Shown piece by piece: positions 29,001 to 61,160 of a stretch of DNA of 64,000 nt (the stretch's first letter is position 1; each line of letters begins with the position of its first letter). The notes beneath the pieces are model-generated. The model made no database searches. It was not told the origin of the DNA and was given only the letters and a program-made list of their open reading frames with translations. This stretch comes from Chromera velia (taxonomy: Eukaryota > Sar > Chromeraceae). Both the position numbers and the translations under genes were made by a program. The stretch is taken from contig JAHBMJ010005823.1 in assembly GCA_018398765.1 (NCBI GenBank), positions 81,771-145,770 on the forward strand, given 5' to 3'.

Positions 29001-30089
29001 GAGGTCGTGCTCTTCTCCGTTGGTGCACTGGTCAAACCAGTCATTGCGGGTGTGGGGCTGTCGATGCTGAACTTTCGGTTGGTCGGTCGGAAACATGCAT
29101 GGCTCAAGCTGGGGTGAGTGTCTAGACAAGAGACCCGTAAGAAGAAATTACGTTCAGATTTCAGGGATTTTTGTGCGTCCTTCTGCGTAGCTGCTCGTGG
29201 GGGAGGGTCACAATTCTCTTCCCTCTCTGCCACTCTTTCACCAGTCAAAATGAGGCTCTGGCTCGTATGTCTTCATTTGTTTCTATCCGCTGCCAATTCT
29301 TTTTGTCTTTGGCTCTTTAATGTCTATTTTCTTTGTTTGTACAGGTACCTGGGGGCCAAGCGGTACGAAACTACACAGAAGCATGCACAGAGCATTCTCC
29401 TTGCACGAATGGGCCCGGTTGCACAGGCACAGGCAGAAGGAGGGGCCCCAGGGGATGAAGACGGAGGCGCGTTGGCGTTTCTCCTCGAAGGAGCACCCGA
29501 CGAGGATGGGGGGATCTCCACAGAATACCAAGTGGGAAAGCAAGCAAGAGCCCAGCTGACTTCCCAGCTCAATCAGATGGAAGCACAAACAGCAATGCTC
29601 CAGCAGATGGGGGGGGGCGCCATGGCACAGCCTGTGAGCATGGCAGTCGCTAGTGGGGCCGAGATGCCTCTCGCTCAGTCTGCCGGTATTGCCGTCGCTC
29701 AGCCTGCTGGTTTTGCAGTCGCTCAACCGGTCGGTATGGCGATGGCACAGCCGATGGGCATGGCGGTCGCTAGCCCGGCCGAGATGCCTCTCGCTCAGTC
29801 TGCCGGTATTGCCGTCGCTGAGCCTGCTGGTTTTGCAGTCGCTCAACCGGTCGGTATGGCGATGGCACAGCCTGTGGGCATGGCGGTCGCTAGCCCGGCC
29901 GAGATGCCTCTCGCTCAGTCTGCCGGTATTGCCGTCGCTCAGCCTGCTGGTTTTGCAGTCGCTCAACCGGTCGGTATGGCGATGGCACAGCCGATGGGCA
30001 TGGCAGTCGCTCAGCCAGTAGGAGGCGCCGTGGAAATGACTGCACTGGGGGGAGGGGACGAGCGAGCTCCGCTGTTGGGGAACAGGTGA
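24732..30089 (+). CDS. 1059-aa multipass membrane protein with C-terminal repeats, 9 exons
   Basis: Exons: 24732-25170, 25266-25777, 26073-26447, 26759-26983, 27214-27429, 27756-27902, 28310-28542, 28826-29113 and 29345-30089. All junctions are GT-AG and the total is 3180 nt, exactly in frame from ATG to TGA. Hydrophobic, probably membrane-spanning segments occur in nearly every exon (e.g. FVTLIASALFLFLFFLIP in exon 6), separated by charged loops. Exon 9 encodes an Ala/Gln/Pro/Met-rich tail with three 40-residue repeats, then ends with E-R-A-P-L-L, an [DE]xxxL[LI] sorting motif that suggests endolysosomal or plasma-membrane trafficking. An alternative exon 4 donor (26920) also keeps the frame. 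I do not recognise the family; a transporter or channel role would be a guess. Confidence 0.8.
26033..26064. repeat. (GT)n microsatellite in intron
   Basis: A pure TG run ends 8 bases before the exon 3 acceptor of the membrane-protein gene and may act as part of its pyrimidine/GT-rich acceptor context. Confidence 0.9.
29658..30017 (+). repeat. 120-bp coding repeat, three units
   Basis: Three near-identical 120-bp units start at about 29658, 29778 and 29898. Each encodes 40 residues rich in AVAQP/MAQP motifs at the C-terminal tail of the membrane protein. The DNA-level identity implies recent expansion or homogenisation. Confidence 0.9.
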
Positions 30090-34589: not shown

Positions 34590-35741
34590 AACACGGAAGA
34601 AGCCAAGCAGCAGGTGTCGGGCGGACCTCCAGATCCAATAGCCCTGTAGGTACAAATCGATGCCTTGCAGGCACAGTTGCAGCAAAGAGATGCAGATCTT
34701 GCTGCAGCCCAGCAGGCCCAGTAACAACTGACCCAGCAACTCGCATAAGCCCAGCAGCAGCAGGCACCGCAGGTACCGCAGGCACCCCAACATCAGCAAC
34801 AGCAGCAGGAGCAGCAGCAGCAGCAGGCAGGCCAATACGGACAGGCCCAAGCACCTCTCTATGTTGACATGACCAAGTTCAAGGCTCTCGACATCCGGAG
34901 AGTCATGGAGCCATTCAAGAAGGGGGAAGACGACCCCGTAGTTTGGATGTGCATCTTCATGAAGAAGATGAGAAACGGGAATCTGAACATGGAGGAGTGT
35001 AAAGTGCTGTTTGAGAGGCATGCGGAGGGAGTGGAAGTTCGAGAGTGGATGGCCAAGAACGCGCACCAATACACCACCATCGAAGAGTTCGAGCAGGCAT
35101 TCCTAGACAGATTCATACCCACCGAAGCCGAGAGCCAACAGGCAGTGTACGAGTTGTCTCAACTCAAGCTCTCCCCCACGGGTGACTTTGACGCGCATGT
35201 CAAGGTCTTCGAAGCCAAAATGAGGGTCGCACAACCCGGGTACGAGATCAATGCTCATATGCTCCCCTTCCTTGATACCCTCTATCCCTCGCTCTCTATG
35301 GAAATCACCACAGAGCCTGCCCACAAAGAGTATGCCAAGCTGATCCCTCGAGTGCTGTTCCTTCATCAACAGGAGCAAAAGAAGGGACCAAATCCCTCTG
35401 CCAAGAATCTGATGGCCTCAGCTGCGAAGTCTGCCGATGACGTCAAGCAACTGCGTGCCCAAATCTCTTCTCTGCAGTCCAGTATCAACTCGTTGCAGAG
35501 ATATACGCAGTACCCCCAAAAAGCGTCGGCTACCCTGCAGCAGTCGATGGCAGCATCGTTTGGACGTGGATACAATGGAAAGGCACGTAAAGGGAACTGG
35601 AGAGGGAGAGGGGGGAGAGGACGAGGATACCCTACTTCCTCTTCGTCTTCCTAAAGTGTCCCCGGAGGGAATACGCCGGGGCATCCCAATTACGTGGGGT
35701 GTAGGCAATGTGGTTCAAAAGAGCATCGAATCGCATAGTGC
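34590..35741 (+). pseudogene. gag: Gypsy gag with zinc knuckle
   Basis: Capsid-like open part 34869-35654 (261 aa) carries the retrotransposon Gag pattern: a W/F-rich helix set and FEQAFLDRF, then AVYELSQLKLS. A Gln-rich, CAG-repeat N-terminal extension lies upstream in the same frame but contains TAG and TAA stops. Downstream of the TAA at 35652 the same frame encodes a CX2CX4HX4C zinc knuckle at 35700-35741 (CRQCGSKEH, then TAG, then C), so the nucleocapsid was originally part of the same protein. An Arg/Gly-rich stretch precedes the knuckle. Every stop here replaces a codon one C-to-T step away (CAG/CAA). Confidence 0.85.
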
Positions 35742-38560
35742 CCCGATGCACTGCGAGGGAGTGGGGGCAGGAATCAGGGAAACGGGAGAGGAGGACAGGC
35801 TTAGAGGCAGGCCTGTCCTCCGTGAGTGATCAGAAGTTGCCTCCTCCCTGTGTGCCTACAATTGTTCGGGAGGAGGACCATGATTTTAGCAGGCTTTCGC
35901 AGAAGTCGCGAGATGTCCCTACTTCTCGTGGCGTTGCTGCTGATAACCCAAATTCGTTTGCTGCTGCTGGGAGGTCGTCTGTCCTCCCTTCTCCAGAGAC
36001 GCCAGGTATTGCAGCCACAGTTGAGGTAGCAGCCCGCCCCTGGGTGAATTTGTTTCTTTTTGGCCGAAAAGCATCTGCACTGTTGGATTCAGGTGCACAG
36101 ACCAGTGTGATCAACATCTCTTTCCTTGTATCTGCAGAGCATGAAATGCAGATAGCGAATGTTGGTCTGAGTACGTTGGGGAACAATGGAATTCCGGTAG
36201 TGGGAGAGACGTGTGCAGAGTTTTCGCATGAGTCTGCACCCAAAAAAATTTTTAAGCACCCAGTACTAGTGGCGGAGAATTCAGAGTACGATGTGGTTCT
36301 TGGGATAGATTTTCTTCGATCCTGATCTGATGTTTCTTTTGAACTTTTTGGGGGGGAAAAGCTGTATATGGGAGACTTTCCTCCCTTTGAGGTCTGGTAT
36401 GATGATGGTCTGAAATCGACGAAGGTGTGTGCCGCGAAGAGAACGTGTATGCCCCGATGGCACCACTCCCTCCTTCAAGTGTCCGTCGATGCCCCGGATG
36501 GTTCAGAAGTCCTTATCTAAAAGAACTTCCCCCGTAGCTATCCTAGTCTGGCTGTTCCTGCTCAGCTGACTACCGTGCAGGGAGGCATCACAGTTATTGA
36601 GGTCATAAACATTTCCCGTTCCAAAATCACAGTCGGTTCGAAAACAGCACTGTCCTTTGCAGAGCCGCCCTCTCACATTGCGGTGATGACTGCTGTGATA
36701 GCAGAAAAACGGCACGCAGGACCATGGCATATAAAGATGACACAGACGGCCGAGAGACTGGAGAGATGTGATCGCATATCCTCAGGAAAACCGTTAGAAG
36801 ACTTAGTGCGGTCCGGGGAGCAGGCCCCGACATACTCTCGGTCAGTCACTCCACCTACTTTTTTGAATGCACAGAGTGCAGATACGCATCCCTCGCTTCG
36901 CTCGCCTTTCCCTTCTCGCTTGCAGACTCTTCCAAAGGCAGACGTGCCTACGAAGTCTTCAAAGGACCTTCCTCCGATCGATTTAGAGAAGGTCATCTCA
37001 GATGTCCCACAGGAGATGAAGGGGGAGTATGTGGGTTTGTTGGGGGAATTTGGAGACCTGTGGTCACGGAGACGTTTTGATTTGGGAGAATTGAAGGTGG
37101 GGGGGAAGCTTTATGAAGCAACTATCCCCACAGAGACGAGCGTTCCCATCAGATGGCAGCAGGACCAAATCCCCTATCATCAGTGAGAGGAGGTGAAGAA
37201 AGAATTGGATACAATGCAGAGTGCAGGGATCATTCAACCCTCGCATTCCCCATGGGCAGCTCCGGTCGTTCTTGTCAAGAAACCTGACGGCTCGACCCAA
37301 TTCTGCCTTAACTTTCGACGACTCAACGCAGCTACCAAGCAGGATCTTTTTCCGCTCCCACGCATCTAGGAGACACTTGATAAGCTTGCCGGCTTGTCAG
37401 TGTTCTCTACCTTTGACTACATGGTGACCTCGGGCTTCCATCAGCTTTCCTTGAAGGAAGAGGACAGAGAGAAGACAGCCTTCATCACTCCGTTTGGGCT
37501 GTTTGAATTTCTTCATATGCCCTTTAGTTTAGTTAACACACCCGCCCTTTTCCAGCGAGTAATGACGTTTGTCCTCGCATCGCTCCCATGAGAGATAGCA
37601 CTTGTCTACGTCGATGATGTGATCATCTTCTCTCGCAGTCATGCTGAGCACTTGCAAGACCTCTGTGAGGTCTTCACCCTTATTTGTGCCGCCGGTCTGA
37701 AGCTCTGCCTCGAAAAGGCATAGATTGGAAAAGCACAGATGAAGTATCTAGGTCATACCGTATCCGCCCGTGGAGTCCATCCAAGTCAAAAGAACACGGA
37801 GAAGGTAAAGAACTGGCCGACCCCGACCGACCGTCTGAGCTTTCGCACATTCATTTACTTGTGCAACTACTACCAAACTTTTGTTGAGGGGTTTGTGCGG
37901 ATTGCCTATCCGCTGAATCAACTGTTGCATCCCTTCAATAAGAACAAGCAGCCCCTTCCCTTTGTCTGGATAGCCGCAGCAGATGAAGCCTTCCGGGAGC
38001 TCCATAACCGTCTCACTGAGCCACCCATCCTTTCCTTCCCTAACATGTATACCCCATTCATTGTGAAGCCGGATGCTTGTAACATTTCGATTGGGGGTGT
38101 TTTGGTACAAATTAAGGATGGGAGGGAGAGTGTGATCGCATAGTACGCAAACAGGGGGTTACAGGGGGTGGAGCTGAATTATAGAGCTCCAGAGCGAGAG
38201 GCTCTGGCAAATGTGTTTTGCTGCAGGCAGTGGTAACACTACCTGCTTGGCAGTTCCGTTTTCTTGCGGGTGATCCAGACCGATCACAAACTGAATCTAG
38301 CAATGCAGGAAAATAAGTTGGCGAATAAGAGAATCGAAAAATGGGCTCTCGAATTGCAAGAGTATGGATTGCAGTTTTTGCATAAGGAGGAGAATTCCCA
38401 CACCGATGCAGATGCTGTTTCCTGTCTGCCTGTCCCGAGACAGGTGGAGCATTCGACAGACACAGGCGCTCCCCTCTGTCAGCACTGTTTCCTTCCTTCT
38501 GATGGGAGCACTCCCCTCAGATCAAGATTTGATGCAGCAGTGGCAGGAGTGAAGGTATAA
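35708..38560 (+). pseudogene. pol: Gypsy pol: protease, reverse transcriptase, RNase H
   Basis: One frame, different from gag's, with stops at 36323, 36518, 37184, 37367, 37589, 37721, 38141 and 38234. Protease: ALLDSGAQTSVIN and VVLGIDF (36080-36320). Reverse transcriptase: [15 protein letters not shown], then FPLPRI, the MPFSLVN block and the catalytic YVDD at about 37606-37617. RNase H: KPDAC near 38070 and TDHKLNL near 38280. These domains copy the genomic RNA into cDNA and degrade the template. Several conserved positions are changed, and the frame ends at a TAA (38558-38560) before the integrase. Confidence 0.9.
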
Positions 38561-38569
38561 TCGAAGCCA

Positions 38570-40316
38570 AGTCCACACCCACACAAGCAATCGTTCCTTT
38601 CCTGGAGAAGGTGCGACGTTCAGAGCTAACAGAGGTGGAGGTGAAAGATATGTTTGAGTATCTGCAGAAGAAGTCTCTTCCGGAGGATCTTCAGCGCCGA
38701 CGGACAGTGCTAGCACAAGAGTTTTTATTCGAGTTAAGGGATGGCTTGCTCTACAGGTTTTCAGGTGAGTCTGAGCAGTTATATATCTCTGTCCATTTGA
38801 GAGAGACGGTGCTGGTGATGCACCATAATCACCCCATGGCAGGACACGCAGCAACAAAGAAGCTGACAGCTCGGCTTCTCACCGAATTCTGGTGGCCAGG
38901 TCTGTGTAAGGATGTGCGCAGCTGGGTCTACAAGTGCCGTCCCTGTCAAAAGAGAAGAGTACAAGCACCGCAACGCAACCCACAGACCGTTCCCGTCCCC
39001 ACTCGACCCTTCCAGAAGGTCGGCATTGACGTGAAAGGTCCTTTGCCTACCTCTCGTAGAGGCAACCAATTTATCTTTATCCTCACGTGTGCCTTCACAC
39101 GATGGCCAGAGACCTTTGCCTTGCCAGAGGTCCCCGCATGGGTTGTTGCAAAGATTCTTTTTGAGGAGATCATCTGCAAGTATGGCTTTATCGAGGAGTT
39201 GGTATCAGACAGGGGGACGAACTTCTTTAGCGAGATTGTGAGGGAGCTCCTTGCCCTCATGAAGGTCTATCACCACACCACAACAGGGTATCATCCACAG
39301 GCGAACGGCATCCCTGAGCGATTCAATCATTCGTGGGCTGAGGGAGTGGGAAAGCAGCTAAATCAAGAGAAAGGGGATTGGGATCTCTATCTCCAGCCGT
39401 ACAACGTAACATACTGCACTGCTTCCCATGCCGAGACAGGTCTCTCTCCCTTTGAATTGTTGTTTGCTCACACGCCGCAGTCGGTACTGCATGTGCAACC
39501 ACCGCCTGAGGCAGCGAGGTCTCTGCCTGTCTGTTACGACGACTACTACGGATTCATTCAACAAGAACGTGTACAAAAGATTGACAGAGCAGTCACGAGA
39601 GCAGAAAAAGAGAAGCAAACAAGGGAAAGGCGTAATCCCCCTCCGATGACGTGAAGATTCTGTCTAGGGGACCGTGTGTTCCTGCGCAGACCTCCCAATC
39701 CAATGGGGAAGCAACCCGCCTTCGAGGCGAGAGCAGAAGGAACCTATGTGGTCGTGGAAACACCGAGGAACAGACCATATGTGACCGTGATCAGGCCCCT
39801 AGGAGGAAAGAAGAGAGACGTGGTGAGTTCAAATAGATTGCAATTGTGGGAGGCAAAGGATAGAGAGAAGGAAGAGAGTGAAAAGAGTGAAGAGAGTGAG
39901 GCAAAGGAAGACTCTGCACTGCCGAGAGAAGAGAGACAACAGGAGGAGAAGAGAGCAGCTGCGGAGACAAGAAGATCGTCTGAAGGAGAAGGAGTAATCA
40001 TTCTACCAGGCACTCCTCGATCGGACTTTCGATTGGCAGAAGATCCTGAGTTAGAGGATTTGTTGGATGAGTTGGAACTTGGAGACGAGTTGGAGGTACC
40101 TGCTCAGACAGTGGAGGGGCGGAAGTGGGGAGCCCGACGGAAGGGCTCTTTGCCAGTCCGTATCTCTGCGAGTAGAATTTGAGACGGTAAGGAAACGTAC
40201 CGAGTCTCTTTTGACAATGAAACGTTTGCCTGGTTGTCAGAGAAAGAGATTCACTTACCTGAGATGGTTCAAAAATTCGAAAGAGAGAAAGAAAAGGTTT
40301 TGATGGAACTGAGTTG
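38570..40316 (+). pseudogene. Gypsy integrase with chromo-like tail
   Basis: Shifted by one frame from the RT region. The N-terminal HHCC zinc domain is visible (MHHNHPMAGH ... CRPCQKRR). The catalytic triad is intact: Asp codons at 39028 and 39208 and Glu at 39316, with 35 residues between the last two (D,D35E). A TGA at 39652 interrupts the frame. Beyond it lie an acidic, charged linker and a segment near 40140-40270 (RISASRI, TGA, then YRVSFDNETFAWLSEKEI) that resembles the chromo-type tail of some Ty3/gypsy integrases, used for chromatin targeting. Integration would not be possible from this copy. Confidence 0.88.
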
Positions 40317-43399: not shown

Positions 43400-46012
43400 C
43401 TACGCACAAGTAGAGACCGATCCCTCCCCACTGATTTCCCTCTCGGCCCCACCAAACAGCTGGGACCCCCAACCGAAGGTGCCCTCCAACTCCATCTGCA
43501 GGGTGTCCTCGAAACCTCCCCCCCCCATGAGTGTGGGATGAGTGGGGGGAAAGCAGAAGCGTTGGGAGGGCACTGTGCGGATGCGCACCTGACGATACAG
43601 AGAATTTTCCCTCCCAAACCTCCTCTTGAACTCTGTCTGCGCTGTGGCCTCATCAGGGTGATGGAATCGGATTCTCTTCAGCCACCTGTCCTGGTCGAGC
43701 ACCTTGCTTCTTGCATGGAACCACCCCGCATTGTCCAAAACCACCAGCGCCCCCTCTGGCATCATGAAGCTCAAAGTGAGCGAGGGGTTCTCGAGAGCTG
43801 CGTCCAATTCATCCAAAGCTGCCAACTCGGCCTCTGTGCAGTCAGACCGGATCACGACCTCGGAACGATACCTCCACAATCCATGGGAGGACAACACCCG
43901 CCCCTCAACCCAGTCTCTGTCGGTATCCTTTCCGAATTCGGGTGCGACACGGAAACGAAATTTGGATGAATGGAGGGTCTCGAGGGTCTTCCTGCTCAGG
44001 TGCATTCTCAGAGCGTCTCCGTGGATGAGACTGCTCAACCCCCCCCCCTTCTCGTCAGGATGGACGACAAACAAACCGATATACCGAGGAGGGGCCTCCT
44101 CAAAGCAGCAGTCTGTGTGCATAGGAAAAGGCTTGTCGGTCTTCGAACGGGCTGGGGCCCCTGTCTCTTCTCTCTTCCCTTCCTTCCCTGTCTGCTTCGG
44201 TCGGACATCCCAGACTGCAGAGGAGGCGTCGCTGTTGTGGAGGTTCAGCGGGCCCAGACGTCGCACAAAGCGCGTCATGCGCGCGTTCACGGCATCGTCA
44301 AACTCCTGACCCCCTTCCCCCCCTTCGCGACCAGCAGAAGCGGCAGACAGCCACTCGCTGCAGTCAACGACACAGACCCCATTCCGTTCGACGCACGCAC
44401 GAACCGCACATGCGACCGTTTCCTCTTCTTCGTCACTTGCCAACTCCCTGACCCTCTCACACACGCTGTCCGGAATCCCATACACCCTCCTGCCCAACGT
44501 CTCACCGGCCCTCTTGCCGGCACATGAGGGAGGAGACAACGCCCACGGAGCGGGGAGCAGCACAGGCAGCATGATCGTACCCCGCCCCCCCGCGAGGTTC
44601 ACGACGTCACACCCCACAGGGGATGCACGCCACATGCCAAACCCGAGGTATCTCCTCCCAAAGCACTGCACGAGACCCACTACGTGCATGTCCACCACCC
44701 CCCACTCCCCTCCCACAAAGGCCACGATAGGAAACGCGGCCTGAGGGATGAAGGGCTGCAACACGTCCCCTGTGCTCTCCCTTCCCTCATGAAGCCGTTC
44801 AACCCACTCTTCCACAGCGCAGCTACGGCCAAAGAGCATGTCTGCCCCCTTACCGAGCAGAGGGGCCTTGATGACCCACCCAACCCTTTCGGACTGGGCC
44901 TGGTCGAAGACATCGGAGGGACACACAGAGAGGGCATACGAGGGGACTAAGGCATCTCGCAGCCTCTTCGCCTTGGAGAGCCCCACGAGGCCGACGGCAA
45001 TCTCCTCGTCGTACAGGGCAGCGAGCATTCGTTTGTCGTGGACAAGGAAGATGGAGCGGAGGTCGTTGAGGCACCTGGGGAGGGAGGCGAGGGCAGAGAG
45101 GATCTCGTCGGAAAGGCCCAAAAGTTCAAATTGGTGAAGCTCCAGGGCGGCCTGGGTGATGGGACCCACGTTGTCCTGAAGTCTCCCCTGTGCGTCAATG
45201 GAGAGATCACTGGGGACAGCGAAGCGCACATCGCGTCCCTGGGCCTCCATGGTCTTTTTGAACAGGTGGACGTCCCAGCCCTTTTCCTTTCCGATGAGAA
45301 CAACGACAGGCTCCTGAGGGTCAAAGAATGACGCAAAGGAGGCCTCGATGCTCTGGTGTTGGCGAAGGGGAAGGCCTGGAAGGTGATGGAGGTGGTCCAT
45401 GTGTTGGTAGGCACCTGACATCTTGGCCGTCTGGTAGTACCCGTTGAAGGAGAAGCGGGCGTTGATCTCGCAAATGAGAGGACAACCCTCTGGTGTCTGC
45501 AGAAGAGCAGAAGGGAGCAGGGAGCTGTGAACAGATGCAGCAGACTTGAAGGATAGCTGAGGAGTGGAAAGGTGTTTGGTGTTTTGACTGACCAGAAGGA
45601 AGTCAGGTCTCCAAGATCCGAGCTCAAAGGGTTTCTTCAGATTGCCGAGGATGTTCTCGATCTTGGAGCACAGAGGGACGACGCTTCGAAGCCTCTCTTT
45701 CAAAGGGCTGAAGCCTGGCTGCGAGTAGAGGGAAACGGCTTTGCGGAGTGCCTCACTCATCACTTCTACGTTTTGCTGAAGGGTTTTTGCGACCGAGACA
45801 CTGAGGCCGAAGGGATATGGAGACATATACTTTTCGGGAAGCACCTCAAAGAGTCCGGAGGGGCGGAGGGCTTCGCATGTTTTGATGTGGTCAGCAGTGG
45901 CTTTCACAACACAAAGGGTCTCTTGGTTGGAAGGAGTCAGTTGCATTCCACAGCAGCAGCTCGCGGATTGCGGGTGCTGGGGGGAAGGTGTAGAGGAGAC
46001 GGCAAAGCTCAT
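43400..46012 (-). CDS. ATP-grasp-like + TauD/TfdA dioxygenase fusion protein
   Basis: An intronless 870-codon frame from ATG at 46012 to TAG. The open frame extends upstream to about 46240 without an ATG, so a 5' exon is possible. Residues about 150-560 look like an ATP-grasp ligase of the circularly permuted type: ICEINARFSFNGYY near 182, IKAPLLGKGADMLFG with Lys382, VLQPFIPQ, then a late GFGMWRASP/NLAGGRGT segment. Residues about 600-800 carry a TauD/TfdA non-heme Fe(II)/2-oxoglutarate dioxygenase with PMHTD (His632, Asp634) and the distal GWFHARS (His766) followed by an Arg-rich DRWLKRIRFH. Known family chemistry: ATP-dependent carboxylate-amine ligation and oxidation. A small-molecule biosynthesis role is inference; the substrate is unknown. 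Confidence 0.75.
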   Translation of the reverse strand: MSFAVSSTPSPQHPQSASCCCGMQLTPSNQETLCVVKATADHIKTCEALRPSGLFEVLPEKYMSPYPFGLSVSVAKTLQQNVEVMSEALRKAVSLYSQPGFSPLKERLRSVVPLCSKIENILGNLKKPFELGSWRPDFLLVSQNTKHLSTPQLSFKSAASVHSSLLPSALLQTPEGCPLICEINARFSFNGYYQTAKMSGAYQHMDHLHHLPGLPLRQHQSIEASFASFFDPQEPVVVLIGKEKGWDVHLFKKTMEAQGRDVRFAVPSDLSIDAQGRLQDNVGPITQAALELHQFELLGLSDEILSALASLPRCLNDLRSIFLVHDKRMLAALYDEEIAVGLVGLSKAKRLRDALVPSYALSVCPSDVFDQAQSERVGWVIKAPLLGKGADMLFGRSCAVEEWVERLHEGRESTGDVLQPFIPQAAFPIVAFVGGEWGVVDMHVVGLVQCFGRRYLGFGMWRASPVGCDVVNLAGGRGTIMLPVLLPAPWALSPPSCAGKRAGETLGRRVYGIPDSVCERVRELASDEEEETVACAVRACVERNGVCVVDCSEWLSAASAGREGGEGGQEFDDAVNARMTRFVRRLGPLNLHNSDASSAVWDVRPKQTGKEGKREETGAPARSKTDKPFPMHTDCCFEEAPPRYIGLFVVHPDEKGGGLSSLIHGDALRMHLSRKTLETLHSSKFRFRVAPEFGKDTDRDWVEGRVLSSHGLWRYRSEVVIRSDCTEAELAALDELDAALENPSLTLSFMMPEGALVVLDNAGWFHARSKVLDQDRWLKRIRFHHPDEATAQTEFKRRFGRENSLYRQVRIRTVPSQRFCFPPTHPTLMGGGGFEDTLQMELEGTFGWGSQLFGGAEREISGEGSVSTCA

Positions 46013-46790
46013 TGCGGAATCTGTGACGCTTGAGAGGAGCAAGTTCTGTTGAGCCACGACTAAAGTGGACAGTTGGAACAAAGGTTGAGCAGGGATCGGG
46101 TTACACGATGTCACTTTGTTAATTTTGTCAGGGCATACCGCTGTGTCAACTTCGTTGGAGTCAGACTTCCACAGAAAGATCTTGGCAGAAAGTGAAAGAA
46201 GATGATTTGTGTTGTCTTCCTTTTCTGCGCGGTCTTTCACTGATATTCATTTTCACGGCTAAATCTTATTTTCAATAGTTTTTCGAGCGGAGGATTTCGG
46301 CATGACACTCCTGCGTTTCGCAGTGGGCCGCGGCCCCTCGCCGCCGCGTCATGCAGTGCCTCAAGTCAATGTGCCGGGGTCCCTGGCAGCCATCTGGCAG
46401 ATTCTGGCAGCCATGGGTCCTTGAATGTGGCCGCACCGCGTCTGATCCGCCAAGCCCTCTTTGGAGGAGGCGATCCTAACTGTGTCTTCCTTGATATTCG
46501 TTGTGATGTCTTGCATACCCTGCAGGCAGCCGCATTGCAACAGTTTGAATTCGATTTCCTAATTCGCGATTGGTGTGTCGCTACGCACTTCGTCAGGGAA
46601 AAAGTCCGAGACTGCATGCATGGATCCCGTCTCCCAAGAGACTTCGTCTGAAGCCAGTGATCAGGTAAATGCGCTGGCTTGCAAGTCCCTTAACCCACCT
46701 ACTGCATTTGTTGACCGCATGAATTCACTTCTCGCTTGATGCTGCTTGCAGGTGGCTTGACAGGGAAACAAAGGGGAAAAAAGTTCGAGG
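46013..46790. promoter_or_regulatory. Divergent intergenic/promoter region
   Basis: It separates the minus-strand ATP-grasp/dioxygenase gene from the plus-strand glycosyltransferase gene. Transcription of both should start here. No TATA-like or repeated motif stands out, and a short 5' exon of either gene could be hidden in it. Confidence 0.4.
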
Positions 46791-49535
46791 ATGATTTTTA
46801 TTGACGATCACAGACCCGACAAGCTCCCTCTTCTCCCCTGCTACTCTCTGGAGGAGGTGCAAGTCTCAAGAGATGGGAGAGACGACTACGTGCGCCCCAG
46901 AGGCCATACGGAGGGAGGGGTCAAGCACTGGTTTGGAAGCATCCCGTATCATTTCCACTTTGGCTCCTACCTCCTTGGAGTCATTGGCCTCGTTGTGACA
47001 ATGCTGGTGACGTTTTTTTGGAATGGACAGGGTCCGTACTGCTTGAAATACGGTTGCCCTATCGTGACACCCCTGACTTTGCATCAGACTTGGGCCTCCC
47101 CTGACTGGCAGTCCCGTCTCGAGGGAGTTTGGTTTTTCGTCGTTTGGTTTTATTTCATGCCCCCCCTCATTTCGGGGTGGTTGCTCTACGTGTGCGGGTT
47201 TCTGAATCTCGCCGGTTTGACGCCGTCTAAAAGCGCCACACGTCACCAGGTGATCAAGGCCTTCACAATTCCCCCACAAGAAACGGGGGGGCCGCTGCGG
47301 CACCGACATATTCATTTCCGAGTGGTGACCAAAGGGAGGAACCCGGATCTGATCCAGCACACCCTCGAACACAACCTGAACACGGTACGCCCCTTCATAG
47401 CAGAGGGACTGTTGTTCAGTCCTGTGGTGGAAATCGTGACAGATCATGCACTCCCCAACATCCACACGTTGGAAGAGACGGGGCGTGCCGTCGGGGTGAC
47501 GGTGAGAGAAATACTGGTTCCCCCATCATACACCTGCCCTCAGGGGTCCCTCTACAAGGCCAGGGCACTGCACTATGCGAATGTAGTGACCCTAGGACTA
47601 GAAGAGGGGGGAGAGGGGGTGAATGGAGAGTCTCTAGAGAATACAGGGGGGCGGGACAGTCTGCATGATCAGCTTGAGGATGGGTTGTTTTTCGGAAGGG
47701 GAGAAGGAAATGGGGAAAGCCGTGAAACACATGCGGCCGCTTGCAACGGAGACACGCCCCCTGTGTCGAACAGGAAGATGTCTCCCGGTGGTTTGAGGAA
47801 GAATTTGGAAGGTTCTCGAGAAGCAGAGAGGGGTGGAGGGGGGATGGATGCTACTCAGACGGAGAGGGTGGTTTCGTGTGCAGCGTCTCTCTCGGTAACG
47901 GGAAGAGAGTCCGAGGGGGGCAGGGGGGGAATTGTGGATGGGGGGGGGATTTTATCCAGTTTGAGGGGGAGTGTGACAGACGATGATTTGATCGTTCACT
48001 TAGACGAAGAGACCAAATTGACCCCCCAGGCCCTCCAGGGCCTTCTTAGTTTCTATGCAGAGAGACACATTCAATATCTTGATGGAGCAGTGAGAAGGGA
48101 GGAGGAGATCAGGCAAACGCCTGCGTGGTTTCTTGGAAAGAACGCACAGAGAGGGGTAAGGAGAAGTGTGGAAGATGTGACACGCGGCTTTGATGCGATT
48201 GCGCAGGGGATTATTGTCTATGGGCAGGAGAGGCCAGTGGGGTCTCTTGCTGCCACCCTTGCAGACTCGACTAGAGTTTTGGATGATTTCACTAGGTTTC
48301 GTTTGTTTTTCTCCCTAGTGGGCGCCCCTCTCCAGGGGATGAAGGGTTCTTTTATTGCGGTTCCTGCAAGGTATGAGAGAAACCCGAGAAGTGAGGGAGA
48401 TATCGATGTTGCGGGTTGCACGTTTGATGTCGGTCCACGGTCTTCGATCACAGAAGATGCCGCGTGGGCGCTTCGTCTGGTTGAAAGGGGCGTGAGAATT
48501 GGGTTCATTCGGGGTATCCTCTTGGAGAAGTCTCCGTTTTCTTTTCGAGACTTTGTGAAACAAAGAGGGAGGTGGATTCAGGGGCTCTGGAAAGTGGCCC
48601 TTGATAGCGATGGACTGAAACTGTCCACCCGTCTCCCTCTTCTGATTGCCGTCTCCCTTTATTCCCTTGTGCCTGTCAACCTGATCCTTGGGCATGCGTT
48701 TGCTTTGTACACTTTTGGCACAGGTACGCTAGGGACGTTGACATGGACAGGTGTGTTTTTCCAGACGACCATGCAGGCGATGGCGTTGTGGGGGTATTCG
48801 TTCGGGGCCTTCCACAATCTCCGTCCACGGAATGCGGAGACGCGAGTAGGGCGTTTGTGCATGCAGGCAGAGAAGGTTTTTCTTTGCATTTTGTGTGGGG
48901 CTCTGGTGGATGTGTGGTTGTTGATGGAGGCAGCAGGAACTCTGTACGCCTTCTCAACTTGGCGCACGACCTCCCAGGGCTTTCACATCGTTGAAAAGGA
49001 TTTTGCCGGTCAGACTGGATCGAACAACGTTCTAGCAGCCCCCCCCCATGAGCCAAAGTGCCAAAAGCAAGAGCAAAAAAACAATCGTGTCTGGCAGCCT
49101 TCAGCAGGGGAGGGCAGGGGGGATGGCGCTGTGAGGTGCAGTCGGGGGAAAAGGGAAGGATCAGAAACGAGCAGTGCAGTCTCTGAAGCAGGTAGACGGG
49201 AGACTCTGCCTGCGGCTTTTGCCGGGGGCGTTCCGGGATTTTTCGAGAACGAAAGTTTAGATGTTCAGGGGGAGGGGGAGGTGGATGGCACTCAGAAAGT
49301 AGAACGAAAGGATCAGAGAGACAGCCAAGAAATGGAAAAAGATGGAAAGACAGGGGTGAATGGGGATTCAGGATCTCCAACAGGACTTCCCTCTCTTCAG
49401 CAGCGGTGCAGCCAGCCTTCTTCACGTTCTACAAGCGATGCAGGGCTCTCCAGTAGGCCCCGCACGTTCAGACTTGCAGCTGTAGCAGAAGGGGAAGGAC
49501 CGAACGTGGGGGGGGCATGTTTCGGACAGCCTTGA
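46791..49535 (+). CDS. Egghead-like GT2 beta-mannosyltransferase
   Basis: A single 914-codon frame from ATG to TGA. The N-terminus has two TM segments (about 58-80 and 112-140). The GT2 core follows: VVTKGRNPDLIQHTLEHNLN, VPPSYTCPQGSLYKARALHYA, the HLDEET motif (Asp405-Glu407), QGMKGSFIAVP, the acceptor-site TED (Glu555-Asp556) and QRGRW (591-595), then several C-terminal TM helices. This motif set is that of the egghead family (beta-1,4-mannosyltransferase acting on glucosylceramide in animals), so an ER/Golgi glycolipid role is likely. An insertion of about 120 residues rich in Gly, Glu and Ser splits the core before HLDEET, and the last 170 residues are low-complexity and charged. The absence of introns is notable beside the intron-rich genes nearby. 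Confidence 0.82.
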   Translation: MIFIDDHRPDKLPLLPCYSLEEVQVSRDGRDDYVRPRGHTEGGVKHWFGSIPYHFHFGSYLLGVIGLVVTMLVTFFWNGQGPYCLKYGCPIVTPLTLHQTWASPDWQSRLEGVWFFVVWFYFMPPLISGWLLYVCGFLNLAGLTPSKSATRHQVIKAFTIPPQETGGPLRHRHIHFRVVTKGRNPDLIQHTLEHNLNTVRPFIAEGLLFSPVVEIVTDHALPNIHTLEETGRAVGVTVREILVPPSYTCPQGSLYKARALHYANVVTLGLEEGGEGVNGESLENTGGRDSLHDQLEDGLFFGRGEGNGESRETHAAACNGDTPPVSNRKMSPGGLRKNLEGSREAERGGGGMDATQTERVVSCAASLSVTGRESEGGRGGIVDGGGILSSLRGSVTDDDLIVHLDEETKLTPQALQGLLSFYAERHIQYLDGAVRREEEIRQTPAWFLGKNAQRGVRRSVEDVTRGFDAIAQGIIVYGQERPVGSLAATLADSTRVLDDFTRFRLFFSLVGAPLQGMKGSFIAVPARYERNPRSEGDIDVAGCTFDVGPRSSITEDAAWALRLVERGVRIGFIRGILLEKSPFSFRDFVKQRGRWIQGLWKVALDSDGLKLSTRLPLLIAVSLYSLVPVNLILGHAFALYTFGTGTLGTLTWTGVFFQTTMQAMALWGYSFGAFHNLRPRNAETRVGRLCMQAEKVFLCILCGALVDVWLLMEAAGTLYAFSTWRTTSQGFHIVEKDFAGQTGSNNVLAAPPHEPKCQKQEQKNNRVWQPSAGEGRGDGAVRCSRGKREGSETSSAVSEAGRRETLPAAFAGGVPGFFENESLDVQGEGEVDGTQKVERKDQRDSQEMEKDGKTGVNGDSGSPTGLPSLQQRCSQPSSRSTSDAGLSSRPRTFRLAAVAEGEGPNVGGACFGQP

Positions 49536-55939: not shown

Positions 55940-58900
55940 TCACAATCTTTGAGAGCATTGCCGCCTCACATTTCGCATTGCTTGTACCCTTGCTGTCTTT
56001 TCTTGGAGCTCTAGAGACAACCGACGATCCCGTTCTGCTGTTCTCTTCCTCTTCTCTTCCTTCACCGCCTCTCGTGTCTGGCTTGCTCTGCGTTTCTCCT
56101 CCTCCCTCCTTGCATGCAGAGACTTGGCCTCCCTCATCCTTGCCTCCCAGACTTTCTGAGCATTACTTTGGAGGGCGGAAGAATCGCACTGAGCCTTCGA
56201 CTCTCGCCTCTGTCTCCTCTCCTCCCTCTCCCTCTGAAGGGACTTTGCAGCACGTTGCCGCATGTCGGCCCTGCGGAGCTCCGCGGTACCCGCGCGAAGG
56301 AGCGCAGGCGAGGGATAGATCTGCTGCTCGTTACGGAGTCGCGCATGAGATCGCGCAGCTCTTGACTGTGGTTCCCCTTCAGGAAGGGGAACGATCAAGG
56401 CAGACGTATGATCTGCTTGAACCTGCTCGAGGGACTGCTCTTTGTCTTCCAGATCGCCCCCCCCCTCTCTCTTGAACAAGCCAACGGATTCCGAATCAGA
56501 CGGAAGACTGGAATGGACGTTGGAGTCTCTCTTTCCTCCCTGTGACTCTGCAGGCACGCTTGCAGGTGCAGAATCGACGGGCACCTCGGATTCTCCCCCA
56601 CCCCCGTCTCTCTCGAACAAGCCAACGGATTCCGAATCAGACGGGAGACTGGAATGGACGTTGGAGTCTCTCTTTCCCCCCTGTGACTCTGCAGGCACGC
56701 TTGCAGGTGCAGAATCGACGGGCACCTCGGACTCTCCCCCCCTCCCCTGTCTCTCGAACAAGCCAACGGGTTCCGAATCAGACGGAAGACCGGAATGGAC
56801 GTTGGAGTCTCTCTTTCCCCCCTGTGACTCTGCAGGCACGCTTGCAGGTGCAGAATCGACGGGCACCTCGGACTCTCCCCCACCCCCGTCTCTCTCGAAC
56901 AAGCCAACGGATTCCGAATCAGACGGAAGACCGGAATGGACGTTGGAGTCTCTCTTTCCCCCCTGTGACTCTGCAGGCACGCTTTCAGGGGGAAGACCGA
57001 AGAACAGTCCCTCCGCCCCTCCCCCCCCGACGCTCTCTTCATCACTCCCTGCTACATTGAAACAGCCACACTGACACTCTCCGACAGCTTGCCAGAGGGC
57101 GCGAGGCAGCTGATGTGCGCACTGCAGGACGGCAACCACTCTCCGTCGCATCTCGCGATGGGCATGCAACAGATGGCTGACGGATGTGACTAGCGAGCAT
57201 AGAACTTGAGACTCTGAAACTCCGAACCGCTGACGGGGAGACAGATCTATCAGCCCGTCAGGAGTGACCTGACTCCCCTCCCCCCTCTGTCCCCTCACCT
57301 GCAGACCAAGAGACTTGGCCCACTCTTGAATGAAGGAAGCGAAGAGGGGCAACCTGGTAAGCACAGAGACTCGCATTCCTGTGCCCACGTTCGAAGGACA
57401 TGAAGTCACGAAGCCAAACTTGGCATCTCTAGCAAATGCCCTGTCTCCCCTCTCTCTCTCGTTCTCTGTTGCCAGACGGGATTCGAGTTCAGACAAGACC
57501 AGAGAGAGACGCGAGAAAAGGACGGGGAAATCGACCTGGTCAGAGAGTACCTGCACTCGGAGATGATCCTCCTCCCCCACCCATACACGCACCACACCAT
57601 CCTCAGATATGAACCCCCCCCTGCCAACAGGCCAATCCGTATTCACCCCTGCATCTTCAAAGTACTCCCCCGAGGGCGGGAAGAGCACCCTATCTTTCTG
57701 CAGCTGCTCAGCCCATTCGGGAGAGCACTCTGACAACGTGAAGAATGTCCCTCTCTCGACTTCTTCGATGGCTCTCTTGACACACTGAAGCAGCTCTGTC
57801 CTCTCCTCTGCAGACATCTGGGAAGGGAGACGGAATCTGCGGAGGTTGCGTGCCACGCGGATACGGAGAGAGACCCTCTCCCCGTACTTGTGCAGGGAGG
57901 GGACAGAGGCCGGCAGAGAAGCAAAGTCTTCGGCAGGTTGCACAACCCCGTCCGAAACTCCATGGGCGAATCTGACCAGAGGTCCAAACGACTCCTTGAA
58001 GGTTGTCAGATCTGCTGGGTGGCCCAGAACGCACCCTGCCCAACCCAAAGTCACAAGGTCCCAACAAGAGAGATAGGAATCTGCAGACTGGGGGTTTGTC
58101 TGCTGCCAAAACAGGGCAGGGGAGAAGAAATCGACCCACGACTGTGGCCCCCTTCCTCTGTGCTGCAGCTGTGCCAGTTGAATGTTTTGCAACTTTTGGA
58201 GTCTCTGTCTGAGCACGGGGGCCACGTCGGGATTTGCAAGTTCGTCGCTCCACCTGACAATGAGGGGGTCGAACTCTGGGGCTCTGTCATTGGGGAGAGC
58301 ATGGATGAGCAGAGAAAGTCGCCTCACCTCCTCTTTGCAGGACCTGCTTGCTTCTCTGCGAGCTTCTGTACGTTGGGCGGGGGGAGCAACAGGCGAGACC
58401 GAAGAGGGGCCGTCACTGTGCAATGAGACGGATTCGTCAGACAGAGGAATGCTGGGGGGGTCGGCTCTTGGTTCATCAACCTCGATCATGTATCCCTCGG
58501 ACACTGACTCTTCTTCGAAGTCTTTCTCTGAGCGACAAGGAGTCGCGGGGGGGCTTGCAGAATGAGATGCAGCAAGGAACACCAAGGGGGGGACGATGTG
58601 GGGGGGTACACTGGAGTGGGCTCCTTGTGTGGGGATGGCTTCTTGATCGTCTTCGACTTGGATGGACATTGTGTCTGTGTGTGAAGGGGGCGACTCCGAC
58701 CTGGCTTCTATATGGGAGACAGAAGAGGTTTCGGTGGGGGGTTTTAGGGGGCGGTTGCAGTTGATTTCCTGATTTGGAGATGCGTTGTGAGTGGACTGGG
58801 GACATCCGAGCGAAAACAACCATTGCTGGAATGAACGGGAGGACGCCAGAAACCAAGACGCCAGCGAAGCCGTTGCCAAGAAAGCAAAGGCAACTACTCG

Positions 58901-61160
58901 CAACAGAGGATCATATCGATGTCGAGGCGTCTCTTCACTAGGCTGTCGTCTACGATTTTGAGAGAGGATCGTCTTCCATTCCGTCAGGGACTCCTTCGCG
59001 TTTGTGGCCTCGAAGGAGAAGGGGATGACGGTGTTGCCATTGATGTCCTCAACTAGGTCTCTGCCCTCGCACGCGTTTCCGTTCTCCGAATCCTGCAGAT
59101 ATCAAAAAGGGGGTGGAGGGGGAATGCACCACACACCAAGAATAAAATGCACAAATGTCTAGCGACCAGTGGACAAGACGACATGACGCGATTCGTTGGA
59201 AAACTCCATGCGGGCCAGAAAGATGGAAATGATAACCATGCAAGGACAAGACGATATTAGACGCAGACTTTGCACTGACAGGAACCAAAACGGAAAGAGA
59301 TTAGATCATCCGCTCATTTTATCCTTTGCCGCCTGCCAAAAAGTGAAAGAGAAACTGACGAAGAGGCAGTGCTTGGCTCCCCCTGTCACCACGGGCTTCG
59401 GGAACCAAAAGCTGGGGTCGTGGACCGTGCGGACAATGTCTTCCTTTGCGTCGTCTCTTGCTGTACCAGATTGCACGTCCTCGTCTCTAGGGTGTTCTGT
59501 CAGGCCACACTGAAACTGCACAAAAAGGGCAAAGAGGGAAGCACAGAGAGAAATAATGAGAAAAGGGGAAATGCATATTGACTGAAAACTCAGAGAAATG
59601 CACAGAATCAGAAAACAGGTCCCGCCAACTCCACTGTTACTTAAGCATACAGTACAGGTAGAAGGACTAAAAGGGAATGCATGAGTGAAAGAATGAATTA
59701 CAGAATGAATGAATGAATGAATGAATGAATGAATGCATGAATGAATGAATGAATGAATGCATGAATAGATGAATGAATGAATGAATGAATGAATGAATGA
59801 ATGGATGGATGAATGAATGAATGAATGAATGGATGGATGAATGAATGGATGAATGAATGAAGGAAGGAAGGAAGGAAGGAAAGAAGGAAGGAAGGAAGGA
59901 AAGAAGGAAAGAAGGAAAGAAGGAAAGAAGGAAAGAAGGAAAGAAGGAAAGAAGGAAAGAAGGAAAGAAGGAAGGAAGGAAAGAAGGAAGGAAGGAAGGA
60001 AGGAAAGAAGGAAGGAAGGAAGGAAAGAAGGAAGGAAGGAAGAAAGGGAGGGAGGGAGGAAGGAAGGAAGGAAGGAAGAAGGAATGAGGGAGAAAGAGAG
60101 GAAAGAAGGAAGCAAGCAAGGAAGGAAGCAAGCAAGGAAGGAAGGAAGCAAGGAAGGAAGGAGGAAAGGAAGGAAGAAAAGAAGCAAGGAGGCAAGGGAG
60201 GGAAGGGAGGAAAAAACGAAAAACGAAAAGCGAAGAAGAAACGAGAAGAAGTTGACGAAGGAATGGAAAAGGAGAGACAAGAAGGAGTGAATAAAAAAAC
60301 AAAGGACCAAAGGTGACTGACAACTGTAAATTTCTCCAATCCCCCGTCCTGTATTAAGGTGACTCCTCTCGTCAAGCCTCTCGTTGCGTCGTCTTCATTG
60401 ACTTCTTGCAAGTGTCGCCCTTCGCTCCTCTCAAGGTACGTCTTCTTGTACGCGAAGCCGGAAGGGGAGAGCATGGCTGCACAAAAACATACAAAAGAGA
60501 GAAACAAAGGGTGAGGAGTAATCACTGGCCAATGGGTAGGCACTCGCCGAAAACGGTTTCCTCTCTTTCCGCTCTTCATTTTTACTGCCGAGTAGACCAT
60601 CTCCCGGGGTGAGAATGGCAAAGAGAGGAACAAAGATGGGAAAAAAACCGACCTTTATTGATGTGTTTAGGATTGTTTGGGGGGTGGGAAAGGGGCAGAT
60701 CTTTCCCATTTGGGCCCTTCACCTTCAGAGAATGGAGGTGAGCGTTTGTGGGGATTCCTGGAGACCCGTCTACGTTGATCTGGTATTGATCTTTGAGGTC
60801 CCCTGCACTGTCGTATATCAAAATGCGTGCCTTTGCGTGCCCGTCAATCCCCAGGGGAACAGACACGGGGGGAGGAGCATCGCTTATGAGGGGCACCCAG
60901 GTGACGGTGTTGTCTGCTCCAAACTTCACCTTCACTCTGCAGCCGAGCTCGGTTAACCTCTTCGAGTCTATGCGCAGGTCCAAGCCAATTGCATTCTGTG
61001 CCCCCTTCAAATGCACAGTGCAGACTTTTTGTCCACTACTGGGGTCACAGGGGAGAGGCGCGTGTGACCCGCTATGAGAAATCGTGATACCCTTGAGTAA
61101 CATTTGCTGAAGTCCTCCAAACCCCAGAGGGGCAAGGAAGAACGCGAAGAAAGTCCACAT
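55940..61160 (-). CDS. Membrane-anchored arginine kinase-like protein, 4 exons
   Basis: Exons 61160-60653, 60476-60322, 59515-59360 and 59092-55940 join in frame to 1323 codons (donors GTCGGT, GTCAGT, GTCAGT). The start gives a signal peptide (MWTFFAFFLAPLGFGG). Residues about 25-335 form an ectodomain with scattered Cys. One TM segment lies at about 339-358 (VVAFAFLATASLASWFLASS). From about 670 follows the catalytic domain of an ATP:guanido phosphotransferase: RIRVARNLRRFRLP, GEEDHLR (780-785), CPSNVGTGMR with catalytic Cys838, and RGQRGE (873-878), the arginine kinase form of the specificity loop. Known chemistry: reversible phosphate transfer between ATP and a guanidino compound. The N-terminal substrate subdomain is poorly recognisable. 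The tail has 47-residue repeats and a basic coiled coil. Cytosolic placement of the kinase is inferred from topology. Confidence 0.82.
56440..56995 (-). repeat. 141-bp coding repeat, about four units
   Basis: Near-identical 141-bp units (47 codons) occur in the last exon of the arginine kinase-like gene, encoding acidic Ser/Gly/Glu-rich repeats with VPAESQGGKRDSNVHS and SVGLFER. The first unit (on the coding strand) is partly diverged. Confidence 0.9.
59700..60185. repeat. (GAAT)n and (GGAA)n block in intron
   Basis: About 160 bp of GAAT repeats followed by over 300 bp of GGAA/GAAA repeats. It lies wholly inside the second intron (59516-60321) of the arginine kinase-like gene. Confidence 0.92.

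Follow-up and report, generated by a model that had tools for sequence, protein, structure and literature searches.

A predicted membrane-spanning phosphagen kinase with an apparently borrowed ectodomain in Chromera velia

A 64,000-nucleotide stretch of the Chromera velia genome (positions 81,771 to 145,770 of contig JAHBMJ010005823.1, assembly GCA_018398765.1), referred to here as the window, contains on its minus strand a gene whose four predicted exons join in frame to give a product of 1,323 amino acids (aa; Table 1). Intron phases are 1, 0 and 0 in order from exon 1 to exon 4, the splice donors read GTCGGT, GTCAGT and GTCAGT, and GCAG closes all three acceptors. Exon 4 by itself holds 1,050 open codons, against a median of 193 aa and a maximum of 394 aa for the longest open run in 500 dinucleotide-preserving shuffles. 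Intron 2 (59516-60321) contains a long GAAG/GAAT simple-repeat array at approximately 59675-60212. The predicted product is letter-identical to P0001, a UniRef entry from C. velia CCMP2878 named “Phosphagen kinase C-terminal domain-containing protein”. An earlier sequence-only reading of this locus had described a receptor-like arginine kinase encoded by four in-frame exons; coordinates, splice sites and phases agree with that gene model, and the residue numbers it gave for EEDHLR (780-785), the catalytic Cys (838) and the RGxRGE loop (RGQRGE, 873-878) are exact.

By hydropathy (19-residue means above 1.3), only two stretches of the product stand out, namely the N-terminus (from aa 4, 1.51) and one transmembrane (TM)-like helix (up to 1.84), which supports the TM segment predicted earlier. 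A linker, the kinase, the repeats that had likewise been claimed and a charged tail follow within exon 4; the tail, formerly called a coiled coil, is probably helical. From these features it is reasonably probable that this C. velia gene encodes a protein crossing the membrane once, with a phosphagen (guanidino) kinase on its cytosolic side.

The Pfam search suggested for the catalytic domain recovered PF00217 well above its cut-off, and fold comparison extended this to a complete phosphagen-kinase fold, including the all-helical N-domain; the N-domain went unrecognised in the protein by its own hidden Markov model (HMM), PF02807. Arginine kinases, Paramecium AK3 (7ews) among them, rank with the top folds. 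The match to taurocyamine kinase (expectation value, E, 8e-73) is much stronger than that to the protein-arginine kinase McsB (6fh1; E 8e-22), which has the catalytic domain in common with the window kinase and aligns from that domain on only (query 106-355). McsB is a catalytic domain without the phosphagen-kinase N-domain; an N-domain fold being present here, and taurocyamine kinase being the better match, a McsB-type identity was rejected.

The phosphoryl-transfer residues R124, R126, E225, R229, C271, N274, R280, R309 and R330 are all kept. Twelve checked active-site positions besides the Tyr68 clamp and Glu314 are conserved, in agreement with the earlier claim that the catalytic residues are retained, and the phosphoryl-transfer chemistry is probably intact. 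Position names other than R124 and R280 follow PMC11075012 and PMC5598448. Tyr68, which holds the amino group of arginine (PMC5598448), is replaced by Val628. This Tyr occurs in 42 of 44 chosen comparators, picked from protist- and bacterial-type matches rather than animal enzymes, the other two having gaps there, and it is absent from all seven members of the window kinase's own family that are readable at that position. Assignment by the Tyr68-bearing guanidino-specificity loop of arginine kinase (EC 2.7.3.3) was therefore not accepted, Val628 being found instead. The receptor-like arginine kinase described earlier is supported as a single predicted gene with a signal-like start, ectodomain, TM helix and phosphagen kinase, whereas “arginine” as the substrate is doubtful because Tyr68 is gone. 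An ordinary arginine kinase with a changed address, which would phosphorylate free arginine and buffer ATP under the membrane with the ectodomain acting only as an anchor, is an unlikely though credible alternative. The conserved phosphoryl-transfer residues and the arginine kinases among the top folds would suit it, as would the flagellar, membrane-fraction arginine kinase of trypanosomes (PMC4517888, PMC3679164), but the loss of Tyr68 throughout the readable family speaks against it, and the genome already encodes a normal arginine kinase (P0092, locus L015).

The ectodomain points to a different source. Residues 1-309 match, exon by exon, a gene on another C. velia contig, C603, after which that gene is named here. 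With exon 1 as query, aa 1-150 are 58% identical to it (E 9e-48 genome-wide). The genome-wide matches of exons 2 and 3 are weak (E 0.004 and 0.012), and direct DNA comparison gives 68% (E 3e-22) and 71% (E 1e-8). The start of exon 4 is also weak alone (E 0.11); it follows the same acceptor as in C603, and none of 5000 shuffles attained its alignment score of 57 (mean 17.7). Of six splice sites, five are homologous between the two genes, including CTCTTC/GTCAGT at the end of exon 3, and both genes have a signal-like start. In C603 the intron 1 donor is displaced by 36 bases away from the start codon and reads as the same phase. In the 5′ flank, a 51-bp piece also matches C603 (E 3e-4). Unlike the window gene, C603 continues after the ectodomain in open frames with several hydrophobic stretches, and its contig has no match to PF00217. 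Contig C2479 has a near copy of C603 exon 1 at its end.

From residue 311 on, the window protein instead matches L012 and other TM kinases of C. velia; two families are therefore joined within exon 4, just outside the TM helix. On these alignments the gene is a predicted chimera of a C603-type ectodomain and the remainder of a TM-kinase family member, and the ectodomain seems to have been borrowed from a different membrane protein by this copy of the family. A misassembly or a gene-model join of a C603-like gene to a TM-kinase gene, or a young fusion turning pseudogene, might account for the same arrangement, the join being a single point inside exon 4, the public protein coming from the same genome project, and the assembly paper citing the genome's higher content of low-complexity DNA as a difficulty (PMC4501334). 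Such an origin appears very improbable, however, as the reading frame continues through the join, the ratio of nonsynonymous to synonymous substitution rates (dN/dS) is low on both sides of it, and no locus in the assembly was found close enough to serve as donor, the best candidates reaching 58% in exon 1 and no more than 71% in the kinase region. Moreover, gene prediction for C. velia took strand-specific RNA sequencing as intron evidence (PMC4501334). The published assembly comprises 193.66 Mb in 5,953 scaffolds (PMC4501334); the genome searched here comprised 177.8 Mb in 4,040 contigs.

The Pfam search proposed earlier for the ectodomain gave no match in the window, and nothing above cut-off in the C603 pieces. 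PF12733, a cadherin-like beta sandwich, aligned to C603 exon 1 at E 0.027 (15.4 bits against a cut-off of 24.2); this profile had no match in the genome and none in the controls either, so absence is not implied. An AlphaFold model of exon 1 alone was unusable (predicted local distance difference test score 41). Among proteins, ectodomain residues 20-330 found only P0001 at E up to 1 (1,352 candidates of 728-2315 aa scored).

The kinase has close company in the genome. A profile search found PF00217 at no fewer than 13 places (at least 13, on 11 contigs), and in a 45-row tree eight loci, the window, L009, L010, L011, L012, L013, L014 and L016, form one side of a branch with a Shimodaira-Hasegawa-like approximate likelihood ratio test (SH-aLRT) value of 87. 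The ordinary arginine kinase P0092 lies far from this TM clade. L018 joins next to the clade and L017 at another point; as short sequences on very long branches, both were left unplaced. As eight loci share the kinase clade, a one-off fusion was rejected.

A single open frame in L009 runs through a juxtamembrane ectodomain rich in Cys (C-D-x-W-R-D ... C ... L-I-F), a TM-like stretch and then the kinase. The same three parts share a frame in L011 and in L012, where two stop codons interrupt each copy; one of the L012 stops falls inside the TM. In L010, a related ectodomain is in frame with TM and N-domain; immediately before the kinase and in frame with it, L016 has the Cys ectodomain and L013 a related ectodomain with TM. 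L014 has upstream TM-like stretches only, in other frames. This Cys ectodomain is missing from the window: when it was sought there, only the EWKTIL stretch and TM matched below E 0.01. The predicted layouts of the paralogs are evidence, separate from the window, for the combination of TM and kinase being genuine. Placement of exons 1-3, or of the ectodomain and TM, in a separate transcript, which the sequence-only reading named as the outcome that would overturn it, is accordingly unlikely, because L009 (open) and L011 and L012 (with their stops) join all parts in frame and because five of six splice sites are common to C603.

Immediately ahead of the kinase, L009 (contig C3615) carries a second gene that opens with a signal-like start and recurs at C1755 (L042) without a kinase match; in L010, an L042-like second gene also precedes the kinase, with three stops. 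Since the upstream part of the public protein P0003 (aa 1-456 and the preceding exon) recurs at C1755 without a kinase match, P0003 may merge an L042-type gene with a kinase gene. L009 was not accepted as proof of a long second ectodomain in the family.

Table 1. Predicted features of the gene, all on the minus strand, in window coordinates
Feature	Residues	Position	Strand	Remark
Exon 1: signal-peptide-like start and first ectodomain part		60653..61160	-	58% identity to C603 exon 1
Signal-peptide-like start	1-16	~61113-61160	-	Within exon 1
Exon 2: ectodomain		60322..60476	-	Acceptor and donor at places homologous in C603
Exon 3: ectodomain		59360..59515	-	Donor CTCTTC/GTCAGT same in C603
Exon 4: ectodomain end, TM, linker, kinase, repeats, tail, stop		55940..59092	-	
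C603-like start of exon 4, to inferred fusion point	274-309	58985..59092	-	
Juxtamembrane EWKTIL...	311-335	58907..58981	-	Resembles TM-kinase paralog L012
Transmembrane helix	~336-358	58838..58906	-	Hydropathy
Low-complexity Ser/Pro-rich linker	359-565	58217..58837	-	Read from sequence
Complete phosphagen-kinase fold, N-domain and catalytic domain	566-921	57149..58216	-	
Val at the place of arginine-clamping Tyr68	628	58028..58030	-	
PF00217 match	712-919	57155..57778	-	144.3 bits; cut-off 22.4
Catalytic Cys (= Cys271)	838	57398..57400	-	
141-bp (47-aa) repeat		56460..56989	-	3.8 copies, 95% matches
Highly charged C-terminal tail	1196-1323	55943..56326	-	L012 tail 54% identical

Selection was estimated as pairwise dN/dS (NG86). 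For the kinase, the values are 0.112 against L012 (255 codons), 0.075 against L013 (260) and 0.128 against L010 (259), synonymous divergence (dS) being saturated against the other four paralogs; exons 1-3 give 0.317 against C603 (245 codons). The dS of the ectodomain against C603 is 1.14, and that of the kinase against L012, L013 and L010 is 1.9-2.7. These values are rough, and the lower ectodomain dS fits a capture of the ectodomain after the kinase paralogs had split.

Several observations weigh against an active kinase in this membrane layout. The principal one against the proposed topology is the predicted charge around the TM helix: its N-flank (aa 311-336) carries six Lys/Arg and its C-flank (359-384) one. 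A receptor-type single-pass layout thus fits by hydropathy but disagrees with the flank charges, which speak against an N-outside orientation unless the signal peptide works, and the signal-like start is short and without a basic n-region. In the tree, the SH-aLRT of 87 falls under the starred level of 95, six rows of the TM clade are flagged for odd composition, and L014 for a long branch. Stops or frame breaks damage five of the seven paralogs, namely L011 and L012 as described, L016 by frame changes and stops, L013 by a frame break, and L010 by a stop together with a broken frame where nine G stand in a row; in L009 and L014 the frame stays open across the kinase. The TM-kinase family may therefore be decaying; sequencing error may also be the source of this damage, most of all at base runs. 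Pairwise dN/dS averages both lineages and is no proof of constraint on the window's own branch. Lastly, Gln replaces Glu314, which hydrogen-bonds the guanidinium in an arginine kinase model (PMC11075012). Glu is missing there in the 44 comparators too, and its loss was thus rejected as proof of inactivity, although these are not animal enzymes. The changed substrate clamp, the Gln for Glu314, the many broken paralogs and the receptor-like layout would all be at home in a pseudoenzyme, its kinase fold being a cytosolic adaptor or a sensor of ATP or guanidine without turnover. We regard this as improbable, given that the other twelve active-site positions are kept and that pairwise dN/dS is low, and prefer a phosphagen kinase that retains its chemistry.

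Arginine and other phosphagen kinases (PF00217/PF02807; Limulus, shrimp, Paramecium AK3 7ews) are without the signal-like start, ectodomain, TM, long linker, repeats and charged tail of the window protein. The arginine kinases of the Limulus, shrimp and Paramecium types are soluble; arginine kinases also have the Tyr68 that is missing in the window kinase, where the PF02807 HMM also finds no match. Mitochondrial creatine kinases are membrane-attached phosphagen kinases, but bind peripherally, after cleavage of a presequence. The flagellar arginine kinase of trypanosomes is likewise a protist phosphagen kinase at a membrane, targeted by a 22-aa N-terminal extension that its authors aligned with acylated calflagins (PMC4517888, PMC3679164). 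“Transmembrane” occurs 0 times in the main text of either paper, and their passages on this enzyme mention neither a TM nor an ectodomain.

A search with the kinase region covered 5.8 billion proteins, and the 7,989 candidates sharing most words were scored. Among these were 18 matches of 728-2315 aa, in which hydropathy gave a TM-like segment for P0001, P0003 (both C. velia) and P0015 only. From a second kinase search the best 120 of 621 matches were taken, and a hydropathy scan of 138 proteins found a segment above 1.7 in five (P0001, P0003, P0015, P0033 and P0050). By eye, P0033 and P0050 have mitochondrial-type N-termini, and the hydrophobic segment of P0015 comes after the kinase. In P0015 (1403 aa, metagenome), which may be two merged genes, the kinase precedes a hydrophobic stretch resembling a signal and an extended part that looks secreted. 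Among the literature matches listed, no title or abstract opening described a phosphagen kinase with its own TM and ectodomain, and none paired Chromera velia with arginine kinase; “phosphagen” and “guanido” have 0 occurrences in the main text of the genome paper (PMC4501334). Phosphagen kinases at a membrane are already known, from trypanosome flagella and as mitochondrial creatine kinase; among the matches listed, one with its own TM and ectodomain was not found described. The claim of an architecture without described counterpart is narrowed in that the window gene belongs to a TM clade with eight loci in this genome, and its product is already public as P0001.

Other features of the window include, on the minus strand, a 948-aa open frame (43400-46246) with a TauD-type dioxygenase domain (PF02668, 60 bits) near its C-terminal end and a long N-terminal part without Pfam match. 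On the plus strand lie a 924-aa open frame (46761-49535) with a family-2 glycosyltransferase domain (PF13632, 58 bits) and, by eye, hydrophobic stretches; retroelement-like frames (34749-39654), one gag-like by eye and one an integrase frame (PF17921, 61 bits; PF00665 just below cut-off); and a frame (29118-30089) with a hydrophobic stretch and Ala/Met/Pro-rich repeats matching DUF4774 (41.5 bits).

In the proposed arrangement of the window protein, the signal peptide would leave the ectodomain outside, with the kinase beneath the membrane in the cytosol, where ATP is. With its chemistry probably intact and its arginine clamp changed, the kinase would be expected to use free arginine poorly, or to exchange phosphate between ATP and some other guanidino compound. 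The ectodomain may anchor or sense, such that ATP supply or a phosphorylated guanidino product would be made at one membrane site; switching from outside to inside is a guess. A long shot is that C. velia possesses a class of receptor guanidino-kinases, in which exchangeable extracellular domains would control a cytosolic phosphagen kinase and phosphoguanidine or protein-arginine phosphorylation would be a signal and not an energy store. Phosphagen kinases are textbook soluble ATP buffers. A family that sets one into single-pass membrane proteins while keeping the chemistry, altering the substrate clamp and exchanging ectodomains would add a novel way of supplying energy or producing a signal at a membrane, in an alga that lives free yet is related to the apicomplexan parasites.
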